20,985 bases of DNA from a virus: positions 1 through 20,985 of the IMG/VR virus record IMGVR_UViG_3300048930_001425. One strand, written 5' to 3'. The position numbers were made by a program, and so were the translations under genes. This document shows, piece by piece, positions 978 to 19,214 of this stretch. Position 1 is the first letter of the stretch. Every line of letters begins with the position of its first letter. Below the pieces are notes generated by a model. The model saw only the letters and a list, made by a program, of their open reading frames with translations. It had not been told where the DNA came from and did not search any database.

Positions 978-1492
978 AGACCGCCGCAACCAGAACCATC
1001 CAGCAACAGATCGACGAGCTCCGCGACATGCCGGTGTCGCGACTGCGCGAGCGCTACGCCCAGGTCTTTGGCGAGCCGACGGCCTCCGGGAACCGCCAGT
1101 GGCTCTTTCGACGGGTCGCTTGGCGCATCCAATCCCTCGCGGAGGGGGACCTTTCCGAGCGGGCGCGGCGTCGGGCGGCGGAGTTGGCCCGGGACGTCGA
1201 CGTGCGGGTTCGGCCACTGGGGGAACGGGCAGCCGACGACGCCCGCGTCGGCTCGCGGCTCGTGACAATCACCGGGCGGCTCGCGTCGGCGGGAACCGAC
1301 CGCCTGCCCGCGCCCGGCACCGTCCTGCGGCGCACGTTCAAGGGTGCTGAGCACGAGGTGACGGTGCTCCCCCACGGCTTCGAGTACGAGGGGAGGGCGT
1401 ACCGCTCCCTGTCGGCGGTGGCGACGGCGATCACCGGGTCGCACTGGAACGGGTTCCTGTTCTTCGGGCTAACCAAGAAAGGGACCGCATGA
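974..1492 (+). CDS. DUF2924 family protein
   Basis: A 172-residue protein matching the DUF2924 family, which is typically encoded directly upstream of large serine recombinases. Diagnostic features are the N-terminal stretch IDELRDMPVSRLRERYAQVF, the following GNRQWLFRRVAWRIQSLAEG helix, and the C-terminal block LRRTFKGAEHEVTVLPHGFEYEGRAYRSLSAVATAITGSHWNG, split here only by its natural reading, which resembles a small nucleic-acid-binding fold ending in an aromatic-glycine patch (FLFFGL). The molecular role is not established; genomic association suggests a recombination accessory or directionality partner. It starts at the ATG within an ATGA overlap with the preceding frame, and its own stop overlaps the recombinase ATG at 1489, so translation of the three is probably coupled. 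Family assignment is strong; the functional statement is inference from context. Confidence 0.85.
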   Translation: MKTAATRTIQQQIDELRDMPVSRLRERYAQVFGEPTASGNRQWLFRRVAWRIQSLAEGDLSERARRRAAELARDVDVRVRPLGERAADDARVGSRLVTITGRLASAGTDRLPAPGTVLRRTFKGAEHEVTVLPHGFEYEGRAYRSLSAVATAITGSHWNGFLFFGLTKKGTA

Positions 1493-3081
1493 GCGCTATC
1501 GCCACCAAGCGTCCCGCCGCCTCGCGTCGCGCCACCGCGGAAGCCGCGTCGGGAAGCTCCTCGCCGTCCAAGTCGGTCCCGCGGACTATCCGCTGCGCCA
1601 TCTACACGCGCAAAAGTACCGAGGAGGGCCTCAACCAGGAGTTCAACAGCCTGGACGCCCAGCGCGAGAGCGCCATCGCGTACATCGCCAGCCAGAAGAA
1701 CGAGGGCTGGCTGTGCATCTCCGAGAAATACGACGACGGCGGATTCACGGGCGGGAACATCGAGCGTCCGGCGCTTAAGCGGCTCATGGCCGACATCGAA
1801 GCAGGGAAGGTCGACTGCGTGGTGGTCTACAAGGTGGACCGGCTGAGCCGGTCGCTGATGGATTTCGCGCGGCTGATGGGACTCTTCGACCGCAAGGGCG
1901 TGTCGTTCGTCTCCGTTACGCAGCAGTTCAACACGACCCACTCGATGGGTCGCCTGACGCTGAACATCCTGCTGTCGTTCGCGCAGTTTGAGCGGGAGAT
2001 CATCTCCGAGCGCACGCGTGACAAGATCGCCTCCGCCCGCCGCAAGGGCAAGTACCAGCACGGCAAGCCCATCCTGGGGTACGACTTCGTGCCCGCACCG
2101 GCTCCCTTCACGGGCCGACGCCTCGTCGTCAACAAGGCGGAGGCGGCGCGAGTCAATCGCATCTTCGAGTTGTACCTCGAGGAACGGAGCATCATGCACG
2201 TCGCCGACGAGTGCAACGCACGCGGGTGGACTACGAAGTCGTGGACGACCACTGCCGGTCGCACGGTCGGCAACCGGGAGTTCGACAAGACGATCATCTC
2301 TCGGCTGCTCCGTAACCCGCTGTACCTCGGGAAGGTACCGCACAACGGGGCGGTCTATGACGGCGAGCACGAGGCGATCATCGACGAAGATCTCTTCCTC
2401 CGCGTCCAAGCCCAACTCAAACTCGCCGGGGAGCGCGGCGGGGCGAGCGTGAAGAACTCGACGGGGTCGCTCCTGGGCGGATTGGTTCGGTGTAGGGGGT
2501 GCGGGTGCGCGATGTCTCCCAGCAGTGCCTCGAAGAAGAAGCCCGACGGGACACGCACCCGATACCGCTACTACGTCTGCTCCAACGCGGTGAAGCGCGG
2601 GCGGCAGCACTGCGCCGCCCCGTCCTTGCCCGGGCCCGCGCTCGAAGCATTCGTTCTGGATCAGGTGAAGGCCATTCTGGCCGACTCCCCGCAGATGTCG
2701 GCTGTCGTGGCCCGTGCGATTGACCTCCTCCGCGAAGCGGCCAGCGCTCGGGTCGCGGAGCAGACACGGCTCCGTGCCGTGCTCGAACGGCTCTCCGGCG
2801 AGGAGCCCACGGCCGCCACGCGCCGCGAGATCGAGCGTGTGCGGCGAACGCTCACAGCGGTTTCCGCCCAGGTGGCGGCGGACGCCGACCGCCTCATCGA
2901 TGAGGACGAGGTGACCGGAGCGGTGGAGGCGTTCGACGGGGTCTGGAACGCGATGACGCAGGCCGAACGTGCCGAGTTCCTGCGCGTCGTGATCGCGTCT
3001 GTTGAGTACGACGGCCAGACGCAGAACGTGTCCATCACCTTCAACCCGGAAGCGTCCGCCACGGAAGCGCCAATCCGATGA
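1489..3081 (+). CDS. Large serine recombinase (site-specific integrase)
   Basis: A 530-residue large serine recombinase, expected to integrate and excise the element by making staggered two-base cuts through a phosphoserine intermediate. The resolvase domain spans about residues 35-190: IYTRKST holds the catalytic Ser43, and VVVYKVDRLSRS and FAQFEREIISERTRDKI supply the conserved arginines and the long helix. A recombinase domain follows (about 200-310, GYDFVPAPAP onwards). A zinc ribbon follows with Cys335, Cys338, Cys364 and Cys375. A C-terminal helical stretch (about 395-500) is likely to contain the coiled coil that controls synapsis. Length is normal and all key residues are present, so it is probably active. 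It is flanked by ATGA overlaps with the DUF2924 gene and the HTH gene. The attachment site should lie close to this operon but cannot be placed from one window. Confidence 0.95.
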   Translation: MSAIATKRPAASRRATAEAASGSSSPSKSVPRTIRCAIYTRKSTEEGLNQEFNSLDAQRESAIAYIASQKNEGWLCISEKYDDGGFTGGNIERPALKRLMADIEAGKVDCVVVYKVDRLSRSLMDFARLMGLFDRKGVSFVSVTQQFNTTHSMGRLTLNILLSFAQFEREIISERTRDKIASARRKGKYQHGKPILGYDFVPAPAPFTGRRLVVNKAEAARVNRIFELYLEERSIMHVADECNARGWTTKSWTTTAGRTVGNREFDKTIISRLLRNPLYLGKVPHNGAVYDGEHEAIIDEDLFLRVQAQLKLAGERGGASVKNSTGSLLGGLVRCRGCGCAMSPSSASKKKPDGTRTRYRYYVCSNAVKRGRQHCAAPSLPGPALEAFVLDQVKAILADSPQMSAVVARAIDLLREAASARVAEQTRLRAVLERLSGEEPTAATRREIERVRRTLTAVSAQVAADADRLIDEDEVTGAVEAFDGVWNAMTQAERAEFLRVVIASVEYDGQTQNVSITFNPEASATEAPIR

Positions 3082-10521: not shown

Positions 10522-12699
10522 ATGAGCGACGGCCCGTCCAATCTGCTCGACGCGGCGCGGTGGTACCTCGCGCGCGGCTACGCGCCGATCCCCGTGCCCG
10601 CGGGGACGAAGGTCCCCGTGCTCAAGGGCTGGACGGACCTGCGCCTCGCGGAGGCCGACCTCCCGCAGCACTTCAACGGAATGGGGAACGTCGGCGTGCT
10701 GCTGGGCGAGCCCAGCAGATGGCTCGTGGACGTGGACCTCGATTGCGAGGAGGCGGTAGCGCTCGCGCCCGCGTTCCTGCCGCCGACGGGCGCGAAGTCT
10801 GGGCGGCCCGGCAAAAGGTCGTCGCATTGGTGGTACGTCTGCGAGGGGGCGAAGACCCGCAAGCACCAGGACCCGGCCACAAAGAAGATGATCGTTGAGC
10901 TCCGGAGCACCGGGGCGCAGACCGTTGTCGGCCCGAGCATGCATCCCTGCGGGGAACCGTACGACCCGCTCGAAGGCGAGCCCGCCGTCGTGGATGTCGA
11001 GACGCTCAGCGCGGCGGTCGCGGCGCTGGCCGAGGCGGTGAAGAAGCAGAGATATGGCGAGCCGCCACCGGCGCGAGCGGCCGTGACGGCTGCAGCATCG
11101 AAGTGTCATCCCGACTCCGACGCCGTTCTGCGCCGCGCCGAGGCGTACCTCGACCGCATCCCGCCGGCGATCTCCGGCTCGGGCGGGCACGGCCAGACGT
11201 ATGCCGCCGCGACCGCGATGGTGCACGGGTTCGGGCTGGACCCCGAGACGGCGCTCGCGCTGCTGCGGGACAGGTACAACCCGCGCTGCCAGCCGCCGTG
11301 GTCGGAGAAGGAACTGCGCCACAAGGTCAGCGACGCCGCGAGCAAGCCGCACGATCGCCCGCACGGGTGGCTGCGCGACGCCGAGAAACCCGAGGACATG
11401 GGCGGCGTGGACCTATCCGGTTTCGACCCGGAGCGCCGGCGCGCCCCTGGCGAGCGGCCCCGCTCCGAGCGTCCGCCCGACCCGGGGCCGTTCCCCGATC
11501 ACCTGCTCCGCGTGCCCGGCTTCATCGAGCAGGTGGTCGCGCACAACCTGGCGACGGCCACCCGGCCGCAGCCCGTGCTGGCGCTGGCGGCGGGGATCTG
11601 CCTCCAGGCCGTGCTCGCCGCCCGCAAAGTGCGCGACGAGCGCGGCAACCGCACGAACGTCTACTGCGTCGGCGTCGCCCCCTCCGGCGCGGGCAAGGAC
11701 AACGCCCGCAAGGTGAACAAGAACATCCTCTTCGCCGCCGACATGGTCGAGCACGAAGGGAACGAGGACCTGGCGTCCGACGCCGGTCTCATCACGGCCG
11801 TCGAGGCCGAGCCGGCAATCCTGTTCCAGATCGACGAGTTCGGCCGCTTCCTCCGCACCATCGGCGATCCGAAGAAGGCACCTCACCTGTTTAACGTGCT
11901 GACGGCGCTCATGAAGCTCTACAGCAGCGCCGACACGGTCTTCCGGGGCAAGGCCTACGCCGACAAGAAGCGGAACAAGGTGGTCGATCAGCCGTGCGTG
12001 AGCGTCTACGGCACCACCGTCCCCGAGCACTTCTTCGAGTCCCTCACCGCCGACAGCCTCAGCGACGGGTTCATCGCCCGCCTGCTCGTGTTCGAGTCGG
12101 CCGAGACGCCGGCGCGGCAGCGCGCCAAGGCAACGGGTGTTCCCGAACCCCTGAAGCAGGCCGCCGAGTGGTGGGGAGCGTTCAAGCCCGGCGGCAACCT
12201 TGCCCCCGAGCACCCCCAGCCGATCGTGGTCGAGTCCACGCCGGAGGCGGGCGCGGTGTTCGATGCGCTCGCGGCGATGGTGGATGCAGAGCTCGGCAAG
12301 CCGGACGAGGCGGGGCGGTCGCTGTGGGCGCGCGCGGAGGAGAAGGCGTGCCGCCTGGCGCTGATCTATGCATGCTCGGCGAACGCCCAGAAGCCGGTGA
12401 TCGATCTGGACGCGGCGCGTTGGGCGTGCGATCTGTCGTCGTACCTGACGCGGCGGATGCTCTACATCGCGCACGAGTGGGTTGCGGACGGCGTGTTCGA
12501 CGCTCGGCAGAAGCGCGTCGTCCGGGTGGTGCGCAAGGCGGGTGGAAAGATCTCTCGCAGTGAACTCTGCCGCCGGACGCAGTGGCTGACCCAGCGGGAG
12601 CGGCAGGAAGTCATCGACAACCTCGTGGAAACAGGGCAAATCGAGCAGGTCACGGTGGAGACGGCAACCAAGCCGGGGGTGGTCTATGCGCTGGTCTGA
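10522..12699 (+). CDS. Primase-polymerase fused to DUF3987-like helicase
   Basis: A 725-residue bifunctional replication protein. Residues about 8-165 form an archaeo-eukaryotic PrimPol domain: the metal-binding run LVDVDLD places aspartates at 70, 72 and 74, His102 lies in SSHWWYVC, and STGAQTVVGPSMHPCG forms the third catalytic region. Residues about 190-275 resemble the helical PriCT-like linker (PPWSEKELRHKVSDAASKPH). Residues about 335-600 are a DUF3987-type helicase ATPase with Walker A PSGAGKDNARK (Lys392) and Walker B ILFQIDEFGRF (Asp438-Glu439). The Walker A has Asp where Ser or Thr normally binds magnesium. The C-terminal 60 residues form a winged-helix segment (GGKISRSELCRRTQWLTQRE) probably used for origin or DNA binding. 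It starts three bases after the preceding stop, with only a weak purine box upstream. It should prime and help unwind the element's DNA. Confidence 0.92.
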   Translation: MSDGPSNLLDAARWYLARGYAPIPVPAGTKVPVLKGWTDLRLAEADLPQHFNGMGNVGVLLGEPSRWLVDVDLDCEEAVALAPAFLPPTGAKSGRPGKRSSHWWYVCEGAKTRKHQDPATKKMIVELRSTGAQTVVGPSMHPCGEPYDPLEGEPAVVDVETLSAAVAALAEAVKKQRYGEPPPARAAVTAAASKCHPDSDAVLRRAEAYLDRIPPAISGSGGHGQTYAAATAMVHGFGLDPETALALLRDRYNPRCQPPWSEKELRHKVSDAASKPHDRPHGWLRDAEKPEDMGGVDLSGFDPERRRAPGERPRSERPPDPGPFPDHLLRVPGFIEQVVAHNLATATRPQPVLALAAGICLQAVLAARKVRDERGNRTNVYCVGVAPSGAGKDNARKVNKNILFAADMVEHEGNEDLASDAGLITAVEAEPAILFQIDEFGRFLRTIGDPKKAPHLFNVLTALMKLYSSADTVFRGKAYADKKRNKVVDQPCVSVYGTTVPEHFFESLTADSLSDGFIARLLVFESAETPARQRAKATGVPEPLKQAAEWWGAFKPGGNLAPEHPQPIVVESTPEAGAVFDALAAMVDAELGKPDEAGRSLWARAEEKACRLALIYACSANAQKPVIDLDAARWACDLSSYLTRRMLYIAHEWVADGVFDARQKRVVRVVRKAGGKISRSELCRRTQWLTQRERQEVIDNLVETGQIEQVTVETATKPGVVYALV

Positions 12700-12703
12700 A
12701 CCG

Positions 12704-12805
12704 GATCATTCAATCCTTCATCTAATCCCCGCGCGCGCACGCGGAGCGCACGGGCGTGGGCGTAGGGGAGGTATTGAAAGATTGAATGATCTCTCTCTTT
12801 CAATA
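12704..12805 (+). promoter_or_regulatory. Competing AT-rich inverted repeats (attenuator- or operator-like)
   Basis: Arm 1, GATCATTCAATCCTTCA (12704-12720), pairs 16 of 17 with arm 2, TGAAAGATTGAATGATC (12775-12791). Part of arm 2, TATTGAAAGA (12772-12781), is also perfectly complementary to arm 3, TCTTTCAATA (12796-12805). The two stems exclude each other, as in an attenuator. A pyrimidine run (TCTCTCTTTC) follows arm 2. It begins five bases after the PrimPol stop. It could instead be a cluster of binding sites for the element's own DNA-binding protein. Confidence 0.6.
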
Positions 12806-12846
12806 TCTTCTTCCTCCCTCCCCGCCGCTGCGCCCATGCAGGTCGC

Positions 12847-13101
12847 GTGCCAGGCCGCGCCTACCCGAAGCCTTACAGCCGGAAGCCTTACCAGGGGAGG
12901 ACCTGGGGGAGTAGGTACTTCCCGGGCCAGGCGGCGAAGAGACGCCCGCGGGAACAGCCGCGCTTGGCGACAGAGTTTGTTTCGCCCGTCCGAGCGCCGG
13001 GCGGCCCCGTGGCGGGGTTGATACGTCGCCCGGCCAAGGCCGCGACGTGGGCCAACGTGGGCGGACCCGTGGCCAACGGGCGACGGGGGGGCGGCCCGTA
13101 G
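12847..13101 (+). CDS. Possible small basic protein, uncertain
   Basis: An 84-residue frame starting with GTG at 12847, in the gap behind the PrimPol gene. The N-terminus is tyrosine- and lysine-rich with a five-residue repeat (KPYSR, KPYQG), followed by GRTWGSRYFPG and then a low-complexity Ala/Gly/Pro/Arg tail. The direct DNA repeat at 12867-12891 encodes the repeat. No good ribosome binding site is visible, third-position GC preference is weaker than in neighbouring genes, and no family is recognised. It may be a real small basic protein or merely an open frame in GC-rich DNA. Confidence 0.25.
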   Translation: MPGRAYPKPYSRKPYQGRTWGSRYFPGQAAKRRPREQPRLATEFVSPVRAPGGPVAGLIRRPAKAATWANVGGPVANGRRGGGP

Positions 13102-13195: not shown

Positions 13196-13215
13196 CCCGC
13201 CGCATGTGCGGCGGG
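13196..13215 (+). promoter_or_regulatory. Leader hairpin before the ParB-methyltransferase gene
   Basis: Perfect 8-base stem CCCGCCGC / GCGGCGGG closing an ATGT tetraloop, 57 bases before the GTG start at 13273. It shares the core GCCGC-A(C/T)GT-GCGGC with the inner hairpin upstream of the sigma-like gene at 6005-6021, and resembles an imperfect stem at 15493-15513 upstream of the HARE-HTH gene. A shared RNA or protein ligand is possible. Confidence 0.45.
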
Positions 13216-13272
13216 CCACCACGACGCCCCACGCGCTGGCGCTTGCCGCCGCGCGTCCCAACGGAGATCGCT

Positions 13273-14649
13273 GTGAACATCGAGACGCTGCCCATCGACG
13301 CGGTCAAGGAATACGACCGCAATCCCCGCACCATCAACGACGCCGCCATCGACGCGGTGGCCAAGAGCATCGAGGCGTTCGGCTTCAAGGTGCCGATCCT
13401 GATCGACGCCGACGGCGTGATCATCGCCGGGCACACGCGGCTCCGCGCGGCGCGGAAACTCGGGCTGAAGGAGGTGCCGACCATCCGCGCGGATGACCTG
13501 TCGCCCGACCAGGTCAAGGCGCTGCGCATCGCCGACAACAAGGTCGCCTCGCTGACGTCCTGGGACATGGAGCTGCTGCCCATCGAGCTGGCGGACCTCA
13601 AGGGTGTCGACTTCGATCTCGCGCTGCTGGGCTTCAGCGCCGAGGACCTCGCGGCGATCATGGCCCCCGCCGGCAACGAAGGTCTCGTCGACCCCGACGA
13701 CGTGCCCGCGCCGCCCGACGCCGCGACGACGGTCCCCGGCGACATCTGGGTGCTGGGCAACCACCGCTTGATGTGCGGCGACTCGTCCAAGCCGGAGGAT
13801 CTGGATCGACTGCTGGATGGCCAACCGATCCACCTCGTCAACACCGATCCGCCGTACAACGTGAAGGTCGAGCCGCGGAGCAACAACGCGATCGCGGCCG
13901 GGCTGTCGTCGTTCACGGCCACGCAGCGGAAGGACGCTAGCGCCGGCGACCAGCAGTCGGCGGACCTGCACCGCTACCCCGAGAAGTCCAAGCCGACGCA
14001 CAAGAAGCTCCGGGCCAAGGACCGCCCCCTGGCCAACGACTTCGTCTCGGACCAGGAGTTCGATCGCCTGCTCGCAGCGTGGTTCGGAAACATCGCCCGC
14101 GTGCTCATCCCCGGCGGCGGGTTCTACATCTGGGGCGGCTACGCCAACTGCGCCAACTACCCGCCGGTGCTCAAGGCGATGGAGCTGTACTTCAGCCAGG
14201 CGGTGATCTGGATCAAGGAGCACCCGGTCCTGACGCGCAAGGACTTCATGGGCAACCACGAATGGTGCTTCTACGGCTGGAAGGAAGGAGCGGCGCACCG
14301 CTTCTTCGGTCCCAACAACGTGCCGGACACCTGGAGCATCAAGAAGGTGAACCCGCAGAGCATGGTCCACCTGACGGAGAAGCCGGTGGAACTCGCGCGA
14401 CGGGCCATCGAGTACTCGTCGCGGCCCGGCGAGAACGTGCTCGACCTCTTCGGCGGCAGCGGCAGCACGCTCATCGGCGCGGAGATGACGGGGCGTCGGG
14501 CGTTCCTGATGGAGCTCGACCCGCTGTACTGCGACGTCATCGTGCAGCGCTGGGAGAAGTTCACGGGCGGCAAGGTGGACCGGGTTGGCTCAAACGCTGT
14601 GGCCGAAGAGAAAGCCGCGACCCGTGTCGCGGCTGGGAGCAAGACGTGA
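13273..14649 (+). CDS. ParB-like domain fused to DNA methyltransferase
   Basis: A 458-residue fusion. Residues about 1-95 are a ParB/Srx-type nuclease-like domain (YDRNPRTINDAAIDAVAKSI, then GHTRLRAARKLGLKEVPTI), expected to bind DNA or a nucleotide. The methyltransferase follows: NTDPPYNV (Asp192-Pro-Pro-Tyr195) is the catalytic motif of N6-adenine or N4-cytosine enzymes, and DLFGGSGSTLIGAE (Asp391 onward) binds S-adenosylmethionine. The catalytic motif precedes the cofactor motif, the permuted order of beta-class enzymes. GGAG (13263-13266) six bases before GTG 13273 fixes the start; the longer frame from 13204 begins inside the leader hairpin. No restriction enzyme is adjacent, so it is probably an orphan phage methyltransferase protecting DNA or marking it for regulation or packaging. 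Target sequence cannot be read from the protein. It converges with the minus-strand genes, eight bases apart. Confidence 0.92.
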   Translation: MNIETLPIDAVKEYDRNPRTINDAAIDAVAKSIEAFGFKVPILIDADGVIIAGHTRLRAARKLGLKEVPTIRADDLSPDQVKALRIADNKVASLTSWDMELLPIELADLKGVDFDLALLGFSAEDLAAIMAPAGNEGLVDPDDVPAPPDAATTVPGDIWVLGNHRLMCGDSSKPEDLDRLLDGQPIHLVNTDPPYNVKVEPRSNNAIAAGLSSFTATQRKDASAGDQQSADLHRYPEKSKPTHKKLRAKDRPLANDFVSDQEFDRLLAAWFGNIARVLIPGGGFYIWGGYANCANYPPVLKAMELYFSQAVIWIKEHPVLTRKDFMGNHEWCFYGWKEGAAHRFFGPNNVPDTWSIKKVNPQSMVHLTEKPVELARRAIEYSSRPGENVLDLFGGSGSTLIGAEMTGRRAFLMELDPLYCDVIVQRWEKFTGGKVDRVGSNAVAEEKAATRVAAGSKT

Positions 14650-14657
14650 TGTGCGCC

Positions 14658-14918
14658 TCACTGATCGTCGAGCGTTGGCAGAGCCCCGTCGGTCGCTTCA
14701 TCCCACTCGAGGGCGTAGCGCTCGGCGATGTCCTCGAGGTCGTGCTCGGTCAGGTAGTCGGCGGTCTTCCGCTCCTGGCACGCGGCGACCGCCCGCGCGA
14801 GGTCCGCCCACTCCTCGATCGTGAGCATCTGGTCCTGCCTCGCGCCGAGAAGGTAAAGCGCGGCTTGCAGGACGACTTCGAGTTGCGCTTCGCGGTTTGG
14901 GGCGGGCGTCGCGGTCAT
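14658..14918 (-). CDS. Small uncharacterised acidic protein
   Basis: An 86-residue protein, last gene of the minus-strand cluster and not recognised. It is largely helical and acidic: QLEVVLQAALYLLGARQDQM, then LTIEEWADLARAVAACQERK, and TEHDLEDIAERYALEWDEA. Its ATG (14918-14916) lies three bases after the stop of the HARE-HTH gene, so the two are co-transcribed; a GGGGG box stands about nine bases upstream. The stop is only eight bases from the end of the convergent methyltransferase gene, leaving no room for a terminator between them. Acidic small helical proteins next to DNA-binding genes can be regulators or inhibitors, but no role is assigned. Confidence 0.75.
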   Translation of the reverse strand: MTATPAPNREAQLEVVLQAALYLLGARQDQMLTIEEWADLARAVAACQERKTADYLTEHDLEDIAERYALEWDEATDGALPTLDDQ

Positions 14919-14921
14919 GGC

Positions 14922-15464
14922 TCAGGCCCCCTTCCCCGCGACAAAGACGCCGCGCTCGTGCTTCTTGAAGCGTGCGGCCGTGCCCTTGGCGGCGATCTCG
15001 CGGATGATGGCGGCGTAGAGCGTGGCCTCGGGGGTCTTGCCGCCGGGGCTCGTCCACAGACCCTTGGCCTCCATCGCGGCGATCATCTCCTTGGCCCGCA
15101 TCGGCACCTCGCTGGCAGCGAGCACCTGCGCGGCGGCGTCGAGGGCGCTGACGCGCTTTGCCTTGGGTTCCTTCGCGGGCTTCGGGGCCTTGGGCGTCTT
15201 GGGAGTCTTCTCACCCTTGGCCTTCTTCCCCTTGGCGGCCGCTTCCACGTTCGCGTTGTTGGCCACCTCTTTCTCGCTGGGGACCTCGTGGTCCTGCTTC
15301 CCGCCCGCGAGGCGGCCGTTGATCTCGGCGAGCGCCGCCTTGCGGAGGCGCTCCGTGCTGGAGGCGGCGGTGTCGGGCTTGCGCTTGGGGATGCGCTTGC
15401 CGCCCGGGCCGACGGCCCGCTTCATCGCGGGGGTGCTGCTGGTCTTCTTGGTCTTCGTGCTCAT
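14922..15464 (-). CDS. HARE-HTH domain protein with Lys/Ala/Pro-rich tail
   Basis: A 180-residue protein. The C-terminal 75 residues (about 106-180) match the HARE-HTH winged-helix domain: [40 protein letters not shown], then [16 protein letters not shown] and [15 protein letters not shown]. The domain is found in restriction and chromatin proteins and is proposed to sense or bind modified DNA. The first 100 residues are lysine/alanine/proline-rich and probably disordered, histone H1-like. Two ATGs are possible: GGAG abuts the first (15470), whereas the second (15464) stands six bases after it, so 15464 is chosen. Its sequence near the methyltransferase gene invites the idea that it reads that modification, but this is inference. 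It is co-transcribed with the 14918 gene. Confidence 0.85.
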
Positions 15465-15492
15465 GGTCATCTCCGAACTGGGGGTTGGAAAG

Positions 15493-15513
15493 CCCGTCGC
15501 ACGCTGCGGCGGG
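15493..15513 (-). promoter_or_regulatory. Leader stem before the HARE-HTH gene
   Basis: On the minus strand CCCGCCGCA pairs with TGCGACGGG (8 of 9) around a three-base GCG loop, about 29 bases upstream of the ATG at 15464. It resembles the perfect hairpin at 13196-13215. The rest of 15471-15572 is GC-rich non-coding leader with no further clear signal. Confidence 0.35.
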
Positions 15514-15572
15514 GTTGGGGGGAAAGCGTGGCGGCCGCGGTTCCCCGCGACGCCGCGTGGGCGGGGTGGGGG

Positions 15573-15857
15573 TCAGCAGCCCGCGATGCGTTCGATCTCG
15601 TTGAGGACGTCGTGCACCATCGAGTTGGTGGCGGCCGCCTGTCCCCGGCGGTCTTGCCCGTAGACGTGCTTGGCCACCTCGACGGCCTTCGCGTAGCGGG
15701 CCTCGCGGCTCTCGTCGCGGCGGAACTCGGCGATGACCCTGTCGAGGCGGCCCTCGGCGCGGCTCATGCGGACCACGCTGGCGGCCGCGCCGTCGGCCGT
15801 GGCCCGCACCGTGATGTCCTCTTCGCTGCCCTCGATGACGATGTGCTTGATCTTCAT
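15573..15857 (-). CDS. Small uncharacterised protein
   Basis: A 94-residue protein with no recognised family. The N-terminal part is a beta hairpin (MKIKHIVIEGSEEDITVRAT), while the remainder is helical and charged (RLDRVIAEFRRDESREARYA, KAVEVAKHVYG, then NSMVHDVLNEIERIAGC). AGGAGA six bases upstream of the ATG (15857-15855) is a strong ribosome binding site. It lies 21 bases downstream of the 15879-16142 gene on the same strand and is followed by a roughly 100-base structured leader before the HARE-HTH gene. The high codon-position bias and good ribosome binding site make it a real gene; the function is open. Confidence 0.75.
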   Translation of the reverse strand: MKIKHIVIEGSEEDITVRATADGAAASVVRMSRAEGRLDRVIAEFRRDESREARYAKAVEVAKHVYGQDRRGQAAATNSMVHDVLNEIERIAGC

Positions 15858-15878
15858 GGCGTGTCTCCTTGGAGGGGG

Positions 15879-16142
15879 TTACTCGGCGTCGTTCAAGAAG
15901 GCCTCGACGTGCTCGCGGTCCATCCCGCTCATGAACCCGACCAGGTCGATCAGGTCGCTGCGGACCTTGCCGAGGTCGCCGGTGCGGCCCCAGTTGAGCG
16001 GGTCGGCCTTGGCGGCCTCGGCGTGCTTGTCGAGTTCCATCTGCAGGACGTCCATCAGCCGGGCGATGTCGCCGCGGCGAGCGGCGTAGGTCTCTGCGGC
16101 GGTGGGCTGGTGGAGGACGGGCTTGCGGTTGTGCTTCTTCAT
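15879..16142 (-). CDS. Small uncharacterised helical protein
   Basis: An 87-residue protein, family unknown. The start is the ATG at 16142-16140 because AGAGAGG lies seven bases upstream; 13 upstream in-frame residues are less protein-like. It is mostly helical: PTAAETYAARRGDIARLMDV, LQMELDKHAEAAKADPLNWG, and KVRSDLIDLVGFMSGMDREH. The pattern of a long helix, a short loop with Trp-Gly, and a second helix suggests a small helical bundle. Its initiation region, AGAGAGGTAC followed by four bases and ATG, is the same as the second box of the two-box motif found at 6658 and 19474, so expression may be co-ordinated with those plus-strand genes. A terminator-like hairpin separates it from the upstream minus-strand gene. 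Confidence 0.72.
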   Translation of the reverse strand: MKKHNRKPVLHQPTAAETYAARRGDIARLMDVLQMELDKHAEAAKADPLNWGRTGDLGKVRSDLIDLVGFMSGMDREHVEAFLNDAE

Positions 16143-16146
16143 GTCT

Positions 16147-16156
16147 GTACCTCTCT
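16147..16156 (-). promoter_or_regulatory. Initiation box copy D (AGAGAGGTAC)
   Basis: On the minus strand AGAGAGGTAC is identical to the second box at 19474-19483, and again begins 14 bases before the start codon (ATG 16142). The upstream box is degenerate: GCGACG rather than GCGCGACA, with spacing one base off. It supports the second box acting in translation initiation. Confidence 0.5.
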
Positions 16157-16190
16157 GGTGGGCGGGGGCATGGCGTCGCATGGAAACAGC

Positions 16191-16213
16191 GAAGCCCGCG
16201 TTACGCGGGCTTC
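16191..16213 (-). terminator. Perfect 10-base hairpin, likely terminator of the 16212-16532 gene
   Basis: GAAGCCCGCG and CGCGGGCTTC form a perfect 10-base stem with a three-base loop, overlapping the stop codon of the minus-strand gene that ends at 16212. Downstream on the minus strand comes GCTGTTTCC, only a weak T run, so termination efficiency is uncertain. It may separate the first minus-strand gene from the remaining four or act as an mRNA 3'-end stabiliser. Confidence 0.5.
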
Positions 16214-16532
16214 AGGTGGTCGGCAGTTCGGGGTTGCGGGGGCTGGTGGGTGCCTCCTCGCGTGCGGCCTCGCGGGCCGCGTCGCCTCGTCCTTGGCGGT
16301 ATCCGGTGTGCAGGCCTTCGCGGTACCCGGCCTCGAAGGCGTGGCGGACCAGGTCGCGGATCGACCACACCGGGATCTCGTGGAAGTCGAGGCTGTCGCT
16401 CTTGCGGGTCTGGAGGGTTTCCAGCAGCAGTTCGACCTTGGCCCATTCCAGCTCGGCGTCGAGGGCCTTCCGCTTGGCGATCCCGTCGAGGCTGGGCTTG
16501 GTGTTCTTCCTTGCGTTCTGCGGGGCGTTCAT
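16212..16532 (-). CDS. Small uncharacterised protein, first gene of the minus-strand cluster
   Basis: A 106-residue protein, not recognised. The ATG at 16532-16530 is preferred because GGAGA stands about eight bases upstream; the frame is open further to 16670, but that extension crosses the divergent regulatory region. The product is helical and charged: DGIAKRKALDAELEWAKVEL, then LLETLQTRKSDSLDFHEIPV, then WSIRDLVRHAFEAGYREGLH, with an Arg/Ala/Glu-rich tail (GRGDAAREAAREEAPTSPRN). The segment VWSIRDLVRHAFEAGYREG resembles a short helical interaction motif. A GC stem (16548-16566) precedes the start and a strong hairpin overlaps the stop. It is transcribed divergently from the terminase operon. 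Confidence 0.7.
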   Translation of the reverse strand: MNAPQNARKNTKPSLDGIAKRKALDAELEWAKVELLLETLQTRKSDSLDFHEIPVWSIRDLVRHAFEAGYREGLHTGYRQGRGDAAREAAREEAPTSPRNPELPTT

Positions 16533-16690
16533 GTTCGCGGTCTCCGTCGCGGGTGCTTGCCCCGCGTTGTGACACATGAAGCCATGACATCCGCCACGAG
16601 GCAAGGCAAACCGCAGAGGTTTCGCCGTCATTCCGCGACATGTGGGCAAGTCCGCCGCCGATGTGGGCAACCGTGCGCGGGAGGTCCGCG
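16533..16690. promoter_or_regulatory. Divergent intergenic region with 10-base tandem repeat
   Basis: This 158-base region separates the minus-strand cluster from the terminase operon and must hold promoters for both, though no standard -35/-10 pair stands out. It contains ATGTGGGCAA twice, at 16640-16649 and 16661-16670, exactly 21 bases apart (two helical turns, same face), and a 6-base GC stem CGCGGG / CCCGCG at 16548-16566. The repeat could be an operator or the recognition site (cos or pac) for the small terminase encoded immediately downstream. Confidence 0.5.
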
Positions 16691-16939
16691 ATGACTCCCG
16701 AACACGCGCCTAGTCCCGAGCATGCACAGGGGATGTCCCGGCTCAGCCCCGCCGCGCTGGGCGTCGCGGACGCCGCGCGGGTGCTGACGCGGATCGGCGG
16801 GAAGCCCGTCACCGACGAGATGCTCCGCGCCGACATCGACGCGGGCGCGCCGACGAACGCCAACGGCACCATCAACCTCGTGCACTACGCCGCGTGGCTC
16901 GTGAAGGAGATGTCCGTGGGGGGTGCTGGTGGCGATTGA
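16691..16939 (+). CDS. Small terminase-like DNA-binding protein (putative)
   Basis: An 82-residue protein directly upstream of the large terminase, overlapping it by 17 bases, the usual place for a small terminase subunit. GGGAGG, six bases before the ATG at 16691, fixes the start; a longer frame from ATG 16640 begins inside the tandem repeat. Residues about 18-70 (LSPAALGVADAARVLTRIGG ... DEMLRADIDAGAPTNANGTI, NLVHYAAWLVKEM) resemble a small helix-turn-helix or excisionase-like fold. The end of this block (vtlhYaAWLV) is repeated near residue 60 of the large terminase (KVDLFRYVAWLV), so the two appear to share a domain. Role in recognising the packaging site is inferred from position and the shared domain, not from a named family match. 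Confidence 0.6.
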   Translation: MTPEHAPSPEHAQGMSRLSPAALGVADAARVLTRIGGKPVTDEMLRADIDAGAPTNANGTINLVHYAAWLVKEMSVGGAGGD

Positions 16940-19214
16940 CCCGCGCCAACTCAAGCCCGGCGAACTCGCGCGGCTGCTCAACAGCACGCCGCTGGGCGAG
17001 GTGATCAGCGAGCGGCAGCTCCACCGGCACCGCACGCGCGCGGGGTTCCGCGTCGCGGCCGATGGCGACGCGGGCAAGGTCGACCTGTTCCGATACGTCG
17101 CCTGGCTGGTGACGACGCGGCATGAGGCACTGGCGGAAGCGGCTCGCACGCCCGAAGGGCTCACGGGCTACGAAGCGATGAAGGAGCGGGCCAGGCTCCG
17201 CAACGCCATGCTGTCGCTGTCCGGCCGCGACATCGGCGAGCTGCCGCCCGTCGTTGACCCCGCGCGTCGTGCTCGGGCCGCGAAGGACTTCCGTTACTTC
17301 TGCGAGACGTACTTCGGGCAGACGTTTCACCTGAAGTGGTCCGACGACCATCTGAAGGTCATCGCCAAGATCGAGCAGGCGGTGCTCGACGGTGGGCTGT
17401 TCGCGATGGCGATGCCGCGCGGAAGCGGCAAGACCAGCCTGTGTGAGGTCGCGTGCCTGTGGGCGATGCTCTACGGGCACCGCGAGTTCGTCGCCCTCAT
17501 CGGCTCGGACGAGGAGCACGCGGCGGGGATGCTCGAGTCGATCAAGGCGGAGCTGGAGAACAGCGAGATCCTCGGGGCCGACTTCCCGGAGGTCTGTCAT
17601 CCCATACGGTCTCTCGAGGGCATCCACCAGCGGGCGTCGGGGCAGCTCTATCAAGGCAAGCAGACGCACATCGGGTGGACGGCCCGGGAGATCGTGCTGC
17701 CCACGATCTCGGGCTCGGTGGCGTCGGGGGCGATCATCCGGGTCGCGGGGATCACCGGCCGCATCCGCGGCATGAAGCACAAGCGCGTCGACGGCGTCAG
17801 CGTTCGCCCGTCGCTCGTGCTGATCGACGATCCCCAAACCGACGAGAGCGCCCGCTCGCCGTCGCAGTGCGCCAACCGCGAGCGGATCCTCGCCGGCGCG
17901 ATCCTGGGGTTGGCCGGCCCGGGCCGGAAGATCGCCGGGCTCATGACGCTGACGGTTGTCCGTCCCGACGACCTGGCCGATCGCATCCTCGACCGGGACA
18001 AGCACCCGCAGTGGCAGGGCGAGCGAACGAAGATGGTGTACTCGTTCCCTACGGCCGACCGCCTGTGGGCCGAGTACGCCCGCCTGCGAGCCGAGGGCCT
18101 CAAGGCCGACCGGGGCGGCGCGGAGGCGACCGCGTTCTACAAGGCCCACCGCACGGAGATGGACGACGGCGCGGTGATCTCGTGGCCCGAGCGGTTCAAC
18201 CACGACGAACTCTCCGCCGTGCAGCACGCGATGAACCTGCGGCTGCAGAACGAGGCGGCGTTCTTCGCCGAGTACCAGAACGAACCTCTCCCGGAAGTCG
18301 AAATCGCCGACGACCTGCTCAGCGCCGACCAGATCGCGGCCAAGGTGAACGGCCACGCCCGCGGGCTGGTCCCGCTGGGTTGCTCGTACCTGACCATGTT
18401 CGTCGACGTCCAGGGCAAGGCGCTGTTCTACCTGGTGGCGGCGTGGGAGGACGACTTCACGGGGCACGTCATCGACTACGGAACCGAGCCGGACCAGAAG
18501 CAGCCGTACTTCACGCTCCGCGACATCAAGCGGACGCTCGGGGCCGCATCTGCCCGCGCCGGCGTCGAAGGGGCGATCTACGCGGGGCTCGAGAGGCTCA
18601 TCGAAGCGACGGTGGCCCGCGAGTGGCGGCGCGACGACGGCGCGATGGTGCGGATCGACCGCTGCCTGATTGACGCCAACTGGGGTTCATCGACGGATGT
18701 CGTGTACCAGTTCTGCCGCCAGAGTCCGCACGCCAGCGTGCTCACGCCGAGTCACGGCCGGTACGTTGGCGCGAGCAGCCTCCCGTTCAGCGACTACAAG
18801 CGCAAGCGTGGCGAGCGGGTCGGGCTGAACTGGCGCGTCCCCGTGGTCACCGGCAAACGAGCCGTGCGGCACGTGCTCTTCGACACGAACTTCTGGAAGT
18901 CGTTCGTGCATGCCCGGCTTGCCGTCCCGATGGGCGACCCGGGCGGGCTGTCGCTCTTCGGCCACAAGCCCGAGCATCATCGTCTGCTGTCGGAACACTT
19001 GACCAGCGAGTACCGCGTACGCACGGAAGGCCGGGGTCGAACGGTCGATGAGTGGAAGCTCCGCGTCGAGGGGCTGGACAACCACTGGCTCGATGGGCTC
19101 GTCGGCTGCGCGCTCGCGGCGTCGATGGAGGGGGCGGTGCTCTTCGGGACGGACGCCAAGGTCGTCGCGAGGCCGCGGCTGAAGCTCTCAGCGCTGAAGG
19201 GGCGCTCGCGATGA
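16923..19214 (+). CDS. Phage terminase large subunit
   Basis: A 763-residue packaging motor that translocates phage DNA into the head and cuts it. The N-terminal 70 residues are an extra DNA-binding-like domain (ELARLLNSTPLGEVISERQL, then GKVDLFRYVAWLV). The ATPase domain has Walker A PRGSGKTS (Lys170 in GSGKT 167-171) and Walker B SLVLIDDP (Asp302-Asp303). The C-terminal nuclease domain has the acidic cluster of an RNase H-like fold: Asp495 in MFVDVQGK, Asp584 in LIDANWG and Asp724 in NHWLDGLVG. Overall it resembles GpA/lambda-type large terminases, in line with the gpW-sized and gpB-like products downstream. The start is GTG 16923, with AAGGAGA about twelve bases upstream, a somewhat long spacing; GTG 16929 is an alternative. 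It ends in an ATGA overlap with the zinc ribbon gene. Confidence 0.93.
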   Translation: MLVAIDPRQLKPGELARLLNSTPLGEVISERQLHRHRTRAGFRVAADGDAGKVDLFRYVAWLVTTRHEALAEAARTPEGLTGYEAMKERARLRNAMLSLSGRDIGELPPVVDPARRARAAKDFRYFCETYFGQTFHLKWSDDHLKVIAKIEQAVLDGGLFAMAMPRGSGKTSLCEVACLWAMLYGHREFVALIGSDEEHAAGMLESIKAELENSEILGADFPEVCHPIRSLEGIHQRASGQLYQGKQTHIGWTAREIVLPTISGSVASGAIIRVAGITGRIRGMKHKRVDGVSVRPSLVLIDDPQTDESARSPSQCANRERILAGAILGLAGPGRKIAGLMTLTVVRPDDLADRILDRDKHPQWQGERTKMVYSFPTADRLWAEYARLRAEGLKADRGGAEATAFYKAHRTEMDDGAVISWPERFNHDELSAVQHAMNLRLQNEAAFFAEYQNEPLPEVEIADDLLSADQIAAKVNGHARGLVPLGCSYLTMFVDVQGKALFYLVAAWEDDFTGHVIDYGTEPDQKQPYFTLRDIKRTLGAASARAGVEGAIYAGLERLIEATVAREWRRDDGAMVRIDRCLIDANWGSSTDVVYQFCRQSPHASVLTPSHGRYVGASSLPFSDYKRKRGERVGLNWRVPVVTGKRAVRHVLFDTNFWKSFVHARLAVPMGDPGGLSLFGHKPEHHRLLSEHLTSEYRVRTEGRGRTVDEWKLRVEGLDNHWLDGLVGCALAASMEGAVLFGTDAKVVARPRLKLSALKGRSR

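Follow-up and report, generated by a model that had tools for sequence, protein, structure and literature searches.

Opposed iterons behind a primase-polymerase gene as the putative replication origin of planctomycete phages

What is the role of a large AT-rich inverted repeat that lies directly behind the gene for a primase-polymerase (Prim-Pol) in very GC-rich phage DNA, and does it act as RNA, as a DNA hairpin or as sites for a protein? In the phage considered here, whose host is a planctomycete of the Phycisphaerales type, the established part of the answer is that repeats exist, where they lie, how they are spaced and that they are inherited together with the winged helix of the protein encoded upstream; binding, unwinding and origin activity are the part that we infer. 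The arms are most probably double-stranded iterons of the initiator encoded directly upstream, with 12700-12811 as the core of the phage replication origin.

The inverted repeat and its setting

The window, meaning the whole stretch of DNA analysed, is an entire IMG/VR virus record, 20,985 bases long. The serine recombinase gene (1489-3081) is followed by those for a Sak4-like annealing protein, a DUF669 protein, RusA and a helicase, and then by the Prim-Pol gene (10522-12699), behind which come, past an intergenic gap of 0.5 kb that holds the inverted repeat, a fusion of ParB_N with an N6/N4 DNA methyltransferase (13204-14649), the first gene 3' of the putative origin, and then the terminase, with its large subunit at 16923-19214. 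Two minor features of this map may be added. A DUF2924 gene (974-1492) and the start of the serine recombinase gene share 4 bases, the DUF2924 product being possibly a partner of the recombinase, and the open frame at 14646-16694 has no Pfam match and coincides with a very strong negative AT skew at about 15000-16500.

The Prim-Pol gene (plus strand) encodes the putative initiator, a protein of 725 aa (Pfam PF09250 and PF13148) that joins Prim-Pol, DUF3987 and a C-terminal winged helix. Its AlphaFold2 model has a mean pLDDT of 88, and the N-terminal domain matches the Prim-Pol of pRN1 in fold. DUF3987 was earlier predicted to act as a helicase in mobile elements (PMC5862659); here its best fold matches in a structure search were MCM proteins, residues 332-650 (11515-12471, plus strand) aligning with MCM over 264 residues (VIA-align, Z 18.1, rmsd 3.4). 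In structural modelling of this Prim-Pol family, DUF3987 takes the form of an MCM-like AAA+ ATPase, and a winged helix comes after it, as in MCM proteins. This last domain, residues 658-725 (12493-12696, plus strand), folds as H-E-H-H-E-E both within the full model and when modelled alone, has winged-helix matches with Z up to 9.9 and is the proposed iteron-binding domain.

The repeats begin about 5 nt past the Prim-Pol stop codon. Arm 1 (12704-12720) is complementary at 16 of 17 positions to 12775-12791, with 54 nt between, and 12769-12781 is complementary at 12 of 13 to 12796-12808; arm 2 can pair with arm 1 or with arm 3 and never with both, as the original prediction had it. This is the sole 17-nt inverted repeat in the window with at most one mismatch and a spacer of at most 100 nt, and the same search of 8 dinucleotide shuffles of the window found none. 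The pattern GATCATTCAATCNTTCA, with up to three mismatches allowed, has two matches where 0.02 are expected. The arms had also been described as AT-rich in GC-rich DNA, and the AT-richest 40 bases of the whole window do lie at 12772-12811 (28% GC against 68%), a candidate unwinding element that overlaps arms 2 and 3 and is followed by pyrimidine tracts; the spacer between the opposed iteron pairs (12721-12773), of differing length among relatives, is GC-rich.

The arms are composed of 8-bp units, with copies like TTGAAAGA at 12706 (minus), 12774 (plus), 12782 (plus) and 12796 (minus). Arm 1, on the minus strand, holds an iteron at 12706-12713 and then a degenerate second copy at 12714-12721 (minus), visible by eye in the sequence. 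Arm 2 (12774-12789, plus strand) consists of the tandem iterons TTGAAAGA and TTGAATGA, with TATTGAAAGATTGAA nearly invariant in the window's group, and arm 3 (12796-12803, minus strand) is a further iteron, TCTTTCAA, of which relatives keep only TCTTTCA or less. A conserved CT tract, CTCTCTCTTTC (12791-12801, plus strand), adjoins the iterons. All four occurrences of ATTGAAWG in the window fall at the repeat region, against 0.24 expected. GATC stands at the outer ends of arms 1 and 2 (12704-12707 and 12788-12791), and only part of the relatives have it. Further into the gap lies an apparently non-coding conserved block, 12830-12891 (GCGCCCATGCAGGTCG...GAAGCCTTAC), with a short direct repeat. 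A small conserved gene in the gap was considered and rejected: on inspection of the sequences, the frame from 12847 is broken by a stop codon (GCC TAG) in relatives, with indels elsewhere.

Pairing, regulation or protein sites

Related loci were collected by a Prim-Pol protein scan (34 IMG/VR loci) and by Prim-Pol alignment scans of bacterial genomes (78 loci, nearly all in Planctomycetota) and of IMG/VR (78 loci, many already among the first 34). Some of them (L058, L066, L070, L076, L079 and L080) belong to the same phage family as those of Phycisphaerales and sit in MAGs labelled Betaproteobacteria, Vicinamibacteraceae, Cyanobacteria, Leptolyngbya or Acidobacteria, labels that are probably binning or naming errors. 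Short repeats in both orientations are present at this spot, directly 3' of the initiator gene, in some 125 related loci, nearly all of those collected. The repeat sequence varies by subfamily and falls into at least ten types, TTGAAAGA in the window's group and, in other subfamilies, GTGAAAGAAGG, GGTGAAAGAAG, GGTGACGGATT, CTGACGGATT, GGGAAGGATT, TGGACAAAAG, TGGAGAAAAG, CGGACAGAA, TCGGAAGTT, CGTTGGCC and GGGACGGGTT.

Family 7-mers reach 9-11 copies behind the gene, against mostly four or fewer in shuffles; single loci hold up to 11 copies where 0-1 are expected, and the window has 4-5. In eight whole phage contigs, 4-15 motif matches fall no more than 450 nt from the site, where 0.11-0.61 are expected. 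By exact 7-mer counting neither the window, with its 4-5 copies, nor its short group stands out, and one family member, L106, shows no repeat cluster. Since this counting misses the window's group, spacing and inverted-repeat tests were added. Over 33 representatives the inverted 7-mer pairs peak at 50-79 nt, with 77, 101 and 86 per 10-nt bin where about 8 are expected, and the direct-repeat spacings peak at 8 and 11-12 bp. The window's hairpin is one case of an opposed geometry common to the family. AT-rich and CT tracts adjoin the repeats in nearly all representatives, and in relatives such as L093, L088 and L135 the sequence layout suggests two iteron sets around an AT-rich region. A rule covering all DUF3987 prim-pols is ruled out by seven more distant phages, with other hosts and at most about 31% identity, which have no comparable cluster behind the gene, and the claim is therefore restricted to the planctomycete family.

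The original prediction had offered two readings, a termination/antitermination switch and a replication origin or operator cluster. The first would make the repeats an RNA attenuator, antiterminator or terminator that ends the prim-pol operon, and the RNA folding check that it called for does return a strong fold (-49.8 kcal/mol, z -5.4), with mutually exclusive pairings and a pyrimidine tract past the stem. However, no terminator-like site was found at the repeat region, the tract being CT-mixed, no Rfam family matches it, and the pairing of arm 3 is lost in relatives. Conserved pairing, which had also been expected of the relatives, was not borne out by the 25 distinct arm pairs of the window's group, where 87.3% of cells pair against 86.5% with partners shuffled (81 of 500 shuffles as high), with no excess of compensatory changes and no covariation. 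With a repeat type that tracks the initiator's winged helix, described below, a switch of this kind is highly improbable, and RNA pairing may act as a by-product. The second reading is the one that is supported: the repeats occur family-wide 3' of the initiator, their type tracks its winged helix and an AT-rich segment adjoins them.

Within that reading the arms could still work by structure. Replication of pRN1 requires a stem-loop (21-nt stem, 58-nt loop) behind the gene for a protein with Prim-Pol, helicase and winged helix; the stem-loop lies in a region of low conservation with conserved sequence on either side, and phages were noted to have similar ones (PMC4234260). The window likewise has all three domains in one protein and a large stem-loop (17-nt arms, 54-nt spacer) 3' of the gene, within an inverted repeat of about 100 nt whose arms are poorly conserved between conserved flanks. 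An origin whose arms extrude a DNA stem-loop as proposed for pRN1, with sequence irrelevant, gains from this closeness in size, from arms that differ by group yet are complementary, and from the pRN1 stem mutants, which required that symmetry be restored (PMC4234260). We regard it as unlikely. A stem kept by compensatory change while its sequence drifts is not what the window's group displays: variable stem positions do not covary, the invariant part is a 7-bp motif per arm (the near-invariant parts being GATTGAA/TTCAATC and TGAA/TTCA), and the free position falls at the same place in every 8-bp unit, which is the conservation pattern that binding sites predict. Other members hold 6-11 direct and inverted copies and not a single stem. 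Between groups the arms do change together and remain complementary, but this joint change is also expected if one protein reads both, and arms of different groups would remain complementary because both are sites of that protein. As to pRN1 itself, which is archaeal and has an SF3-type helicase, the sequence motifs bound at its origin had not yet been identified (PMC4234260) and no iterons are reported, whereas the arms of the window are recognisable iterons; the window is a pRN1-like anatomy combined with recognisable iterons.

Sites for a protein could also be an operator, at which the initiator's winged helix or some other regulator would control either its own operon or that of the methyltransferase further on. 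In keeping with this, the sites are clustered and opposed and occupy a long intergenic stretch before a gene, and the initiator's winged helix resembles MarR/PadR-type regulators. Yet the site is 3' of the gene and hundreds of bases ahead of the next start, no promoter-like site was found at the repeat region, and the downstream methyltransferase protein is 85-97% identical across loci with different repeats; the adjoining AT-rich segment and the 4-11 copies also suit an origin better. Control of transcription as the role of the repeats is thus very unlikely, and iteron binding for both replication and regulation is possible. As a separate observation, in L004, L007, L016 and L023 the distance to the methyltransferase gene exceeds the usual one by about 0.7-1.9 kb, which suggests insertions between that gene and the repeats.

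Repeat type and the winged helix

In 22 representatives less than 80% identical in the C-half, the similarity of repeated k-mers behind the gene was regressed on that of the last 80 residues, with beta 0.58 (0 of 1000 permutations), and the Prim-Pol part had no explanatory value in the same regression (beta -0.05). With 33 representatives the beta for the last 80 residues was 0.73. Repeated k-mers of two neighbouring control regions showed no link to the C-terminus in this regression. A weaker correlation with the C-terminus (beta 0.26) exists for single-copy DNA behind the gene as well, so linkage contributes to the correlation, the winged-helix codons being the coding DNA closest to the repeats. 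Repeat type is in sum predicted by the last 80 or so residues of the initiator, that is the winged helix, and not by the primase, as far as sequence comparison goes. The columns of the winged helix with the strongest association (683, 681, 679 and 685) fall in helix 2 of the HTH; the association with repeat type is lower in helix 3, which usually serves for recognition. An LPHSVLLKRMK type accompanies GGTGAAAG, distant members included.

The same partnership is seen where parts of the locus have been exchanged. Against five loci of the GGTGAAAG type (L073, L103, L031, L029 and L032) the DNA identity of the window is mostly about 70-90% up to 11400, about 50-60% from there to about 12850 and about 75-95% thereafter, and from this drop between conserved flanks it follows that the exchanged cassette comprises the helicase half, the C-terminus and the repeats. 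Its right border is the conserved block at 12830-12891, which is common to groups with different repeats. The reverse is seen in L115, L056 and L116, where the Prim-Pol is divergent (65-66% identity) but the C-terminus is similar and the repeats are the same.

A proposed origin and its known counterparts

In the origin that we propose, the C-terminal winged helix would bind the 8-bp units of both opposed arms, and the AAA+ domains would assemble at the iterons and open the adjoining AT-rich and CT-rich segment; the helicase would then unwind the DNA, with the Prim-Pol domain laying primers. Speculatively, the inverted spacing of about 50-79 nt could serve bidirectional replication by allowing a pair of oppositely oriented helicase rings to be loaded. 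Yeast MCM is loaded from opposed ORC sites (PMC12440816), and by inference only the two opposed loading sites may recall this ORC/MCM loading. Carried further, the family could be one of phage origins whose iterons have split into at least ten specificities, each with its own winged helix and each moved as a cassette of helicase, winged helix and iterons, the fixed opposed geometry (about 50-79 nt) being retained for the loading of two oppositely oriented MCM-like rings straight from the initiator; this extended version we hold to be possible and rather doubtful. A turning point in GC skew was set aside as origin evidence, the cumulative skew being inconsistent among 8 contigs and pointing to the site in only one of them.

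The arrangement is known in kind, from the SaPI/PICI rep-ori, SCCmec Cch2 and the pRN1 stem-loop origin. The C-terminal domains of SaPI Rep and of SCCmec Cch2 bind short repeats directly downstream of their own genes (PMC7581432), and the PICI origin is always directly downstream of the initiator gene, with iterons around an AT-rich region (PMC6092414). The window shares with SaPI/PICI the origin site directly 3' of the initiator gene, multiple short iterons and an AT-rich segment, as well as the fusion of primase and helicase that is frequent there; recognition of iterons by the C-terminal domain would have its parallel here, where the two are co-inherited across the family. Differences lie in the large terminase, which SaPI/PICI satellites lack and which the window has as a phage and no satellite, in the ATPase, here an MCM-like DUF3987, and in the core, here opposed iteron pairs about 50-79 nt apart with the AT-rich stretch overlapping iterons. 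SCCmec Cch2 too has direct and inverted repeats 3' of the helicase gene, of which the direct ones are required by Cch2 and bound by its C-terminal domain in isolation (PMC7581432), but Cch2 is a D5-type helicase with a separate primase-polymerase and three 5-nt iterons. The alpha protein of phage P4 likewise has primase, helicase and winged helix in one protein and binds origin repeats (PMC4234260), its primase being TOPRIM-type and that of the window archaeo-eukaryotic.

Searches of the literature on prophages that combine iterons and primase-polymerase, and on primase-polymerase in planctomycete prophages, returned nothing relevant, and the site is a concrete candidate origin for planctomycete prophages with no earlier description in the literature searched. 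The matched pairs of winged helix and iteron, of at least ten types on a conserved scaffold, form a natural series from which a recognition code could be derived. Stem-loop origins of Prim-Pol replicons may be pairs of protein sites rather than hairpins, a point of consequence for origin recognition by pRN1-type initiators; should the cassette and two-ring version be true, the "stem-loop" origins of pRN1-like plasmids would also be opposed iteron pairs.

Incompatibility may drive the diversity of the iterons, and co-resident prophages do often differ in this respect. The four prophages of one Rhodopirellula rubra genome (L087, L089, L090 and L093) have four visibly different iteron types. Against this stand three prophages of a single iteron type, reported under H1_PLA1 and under CP054186 (L040, L043 and L044).
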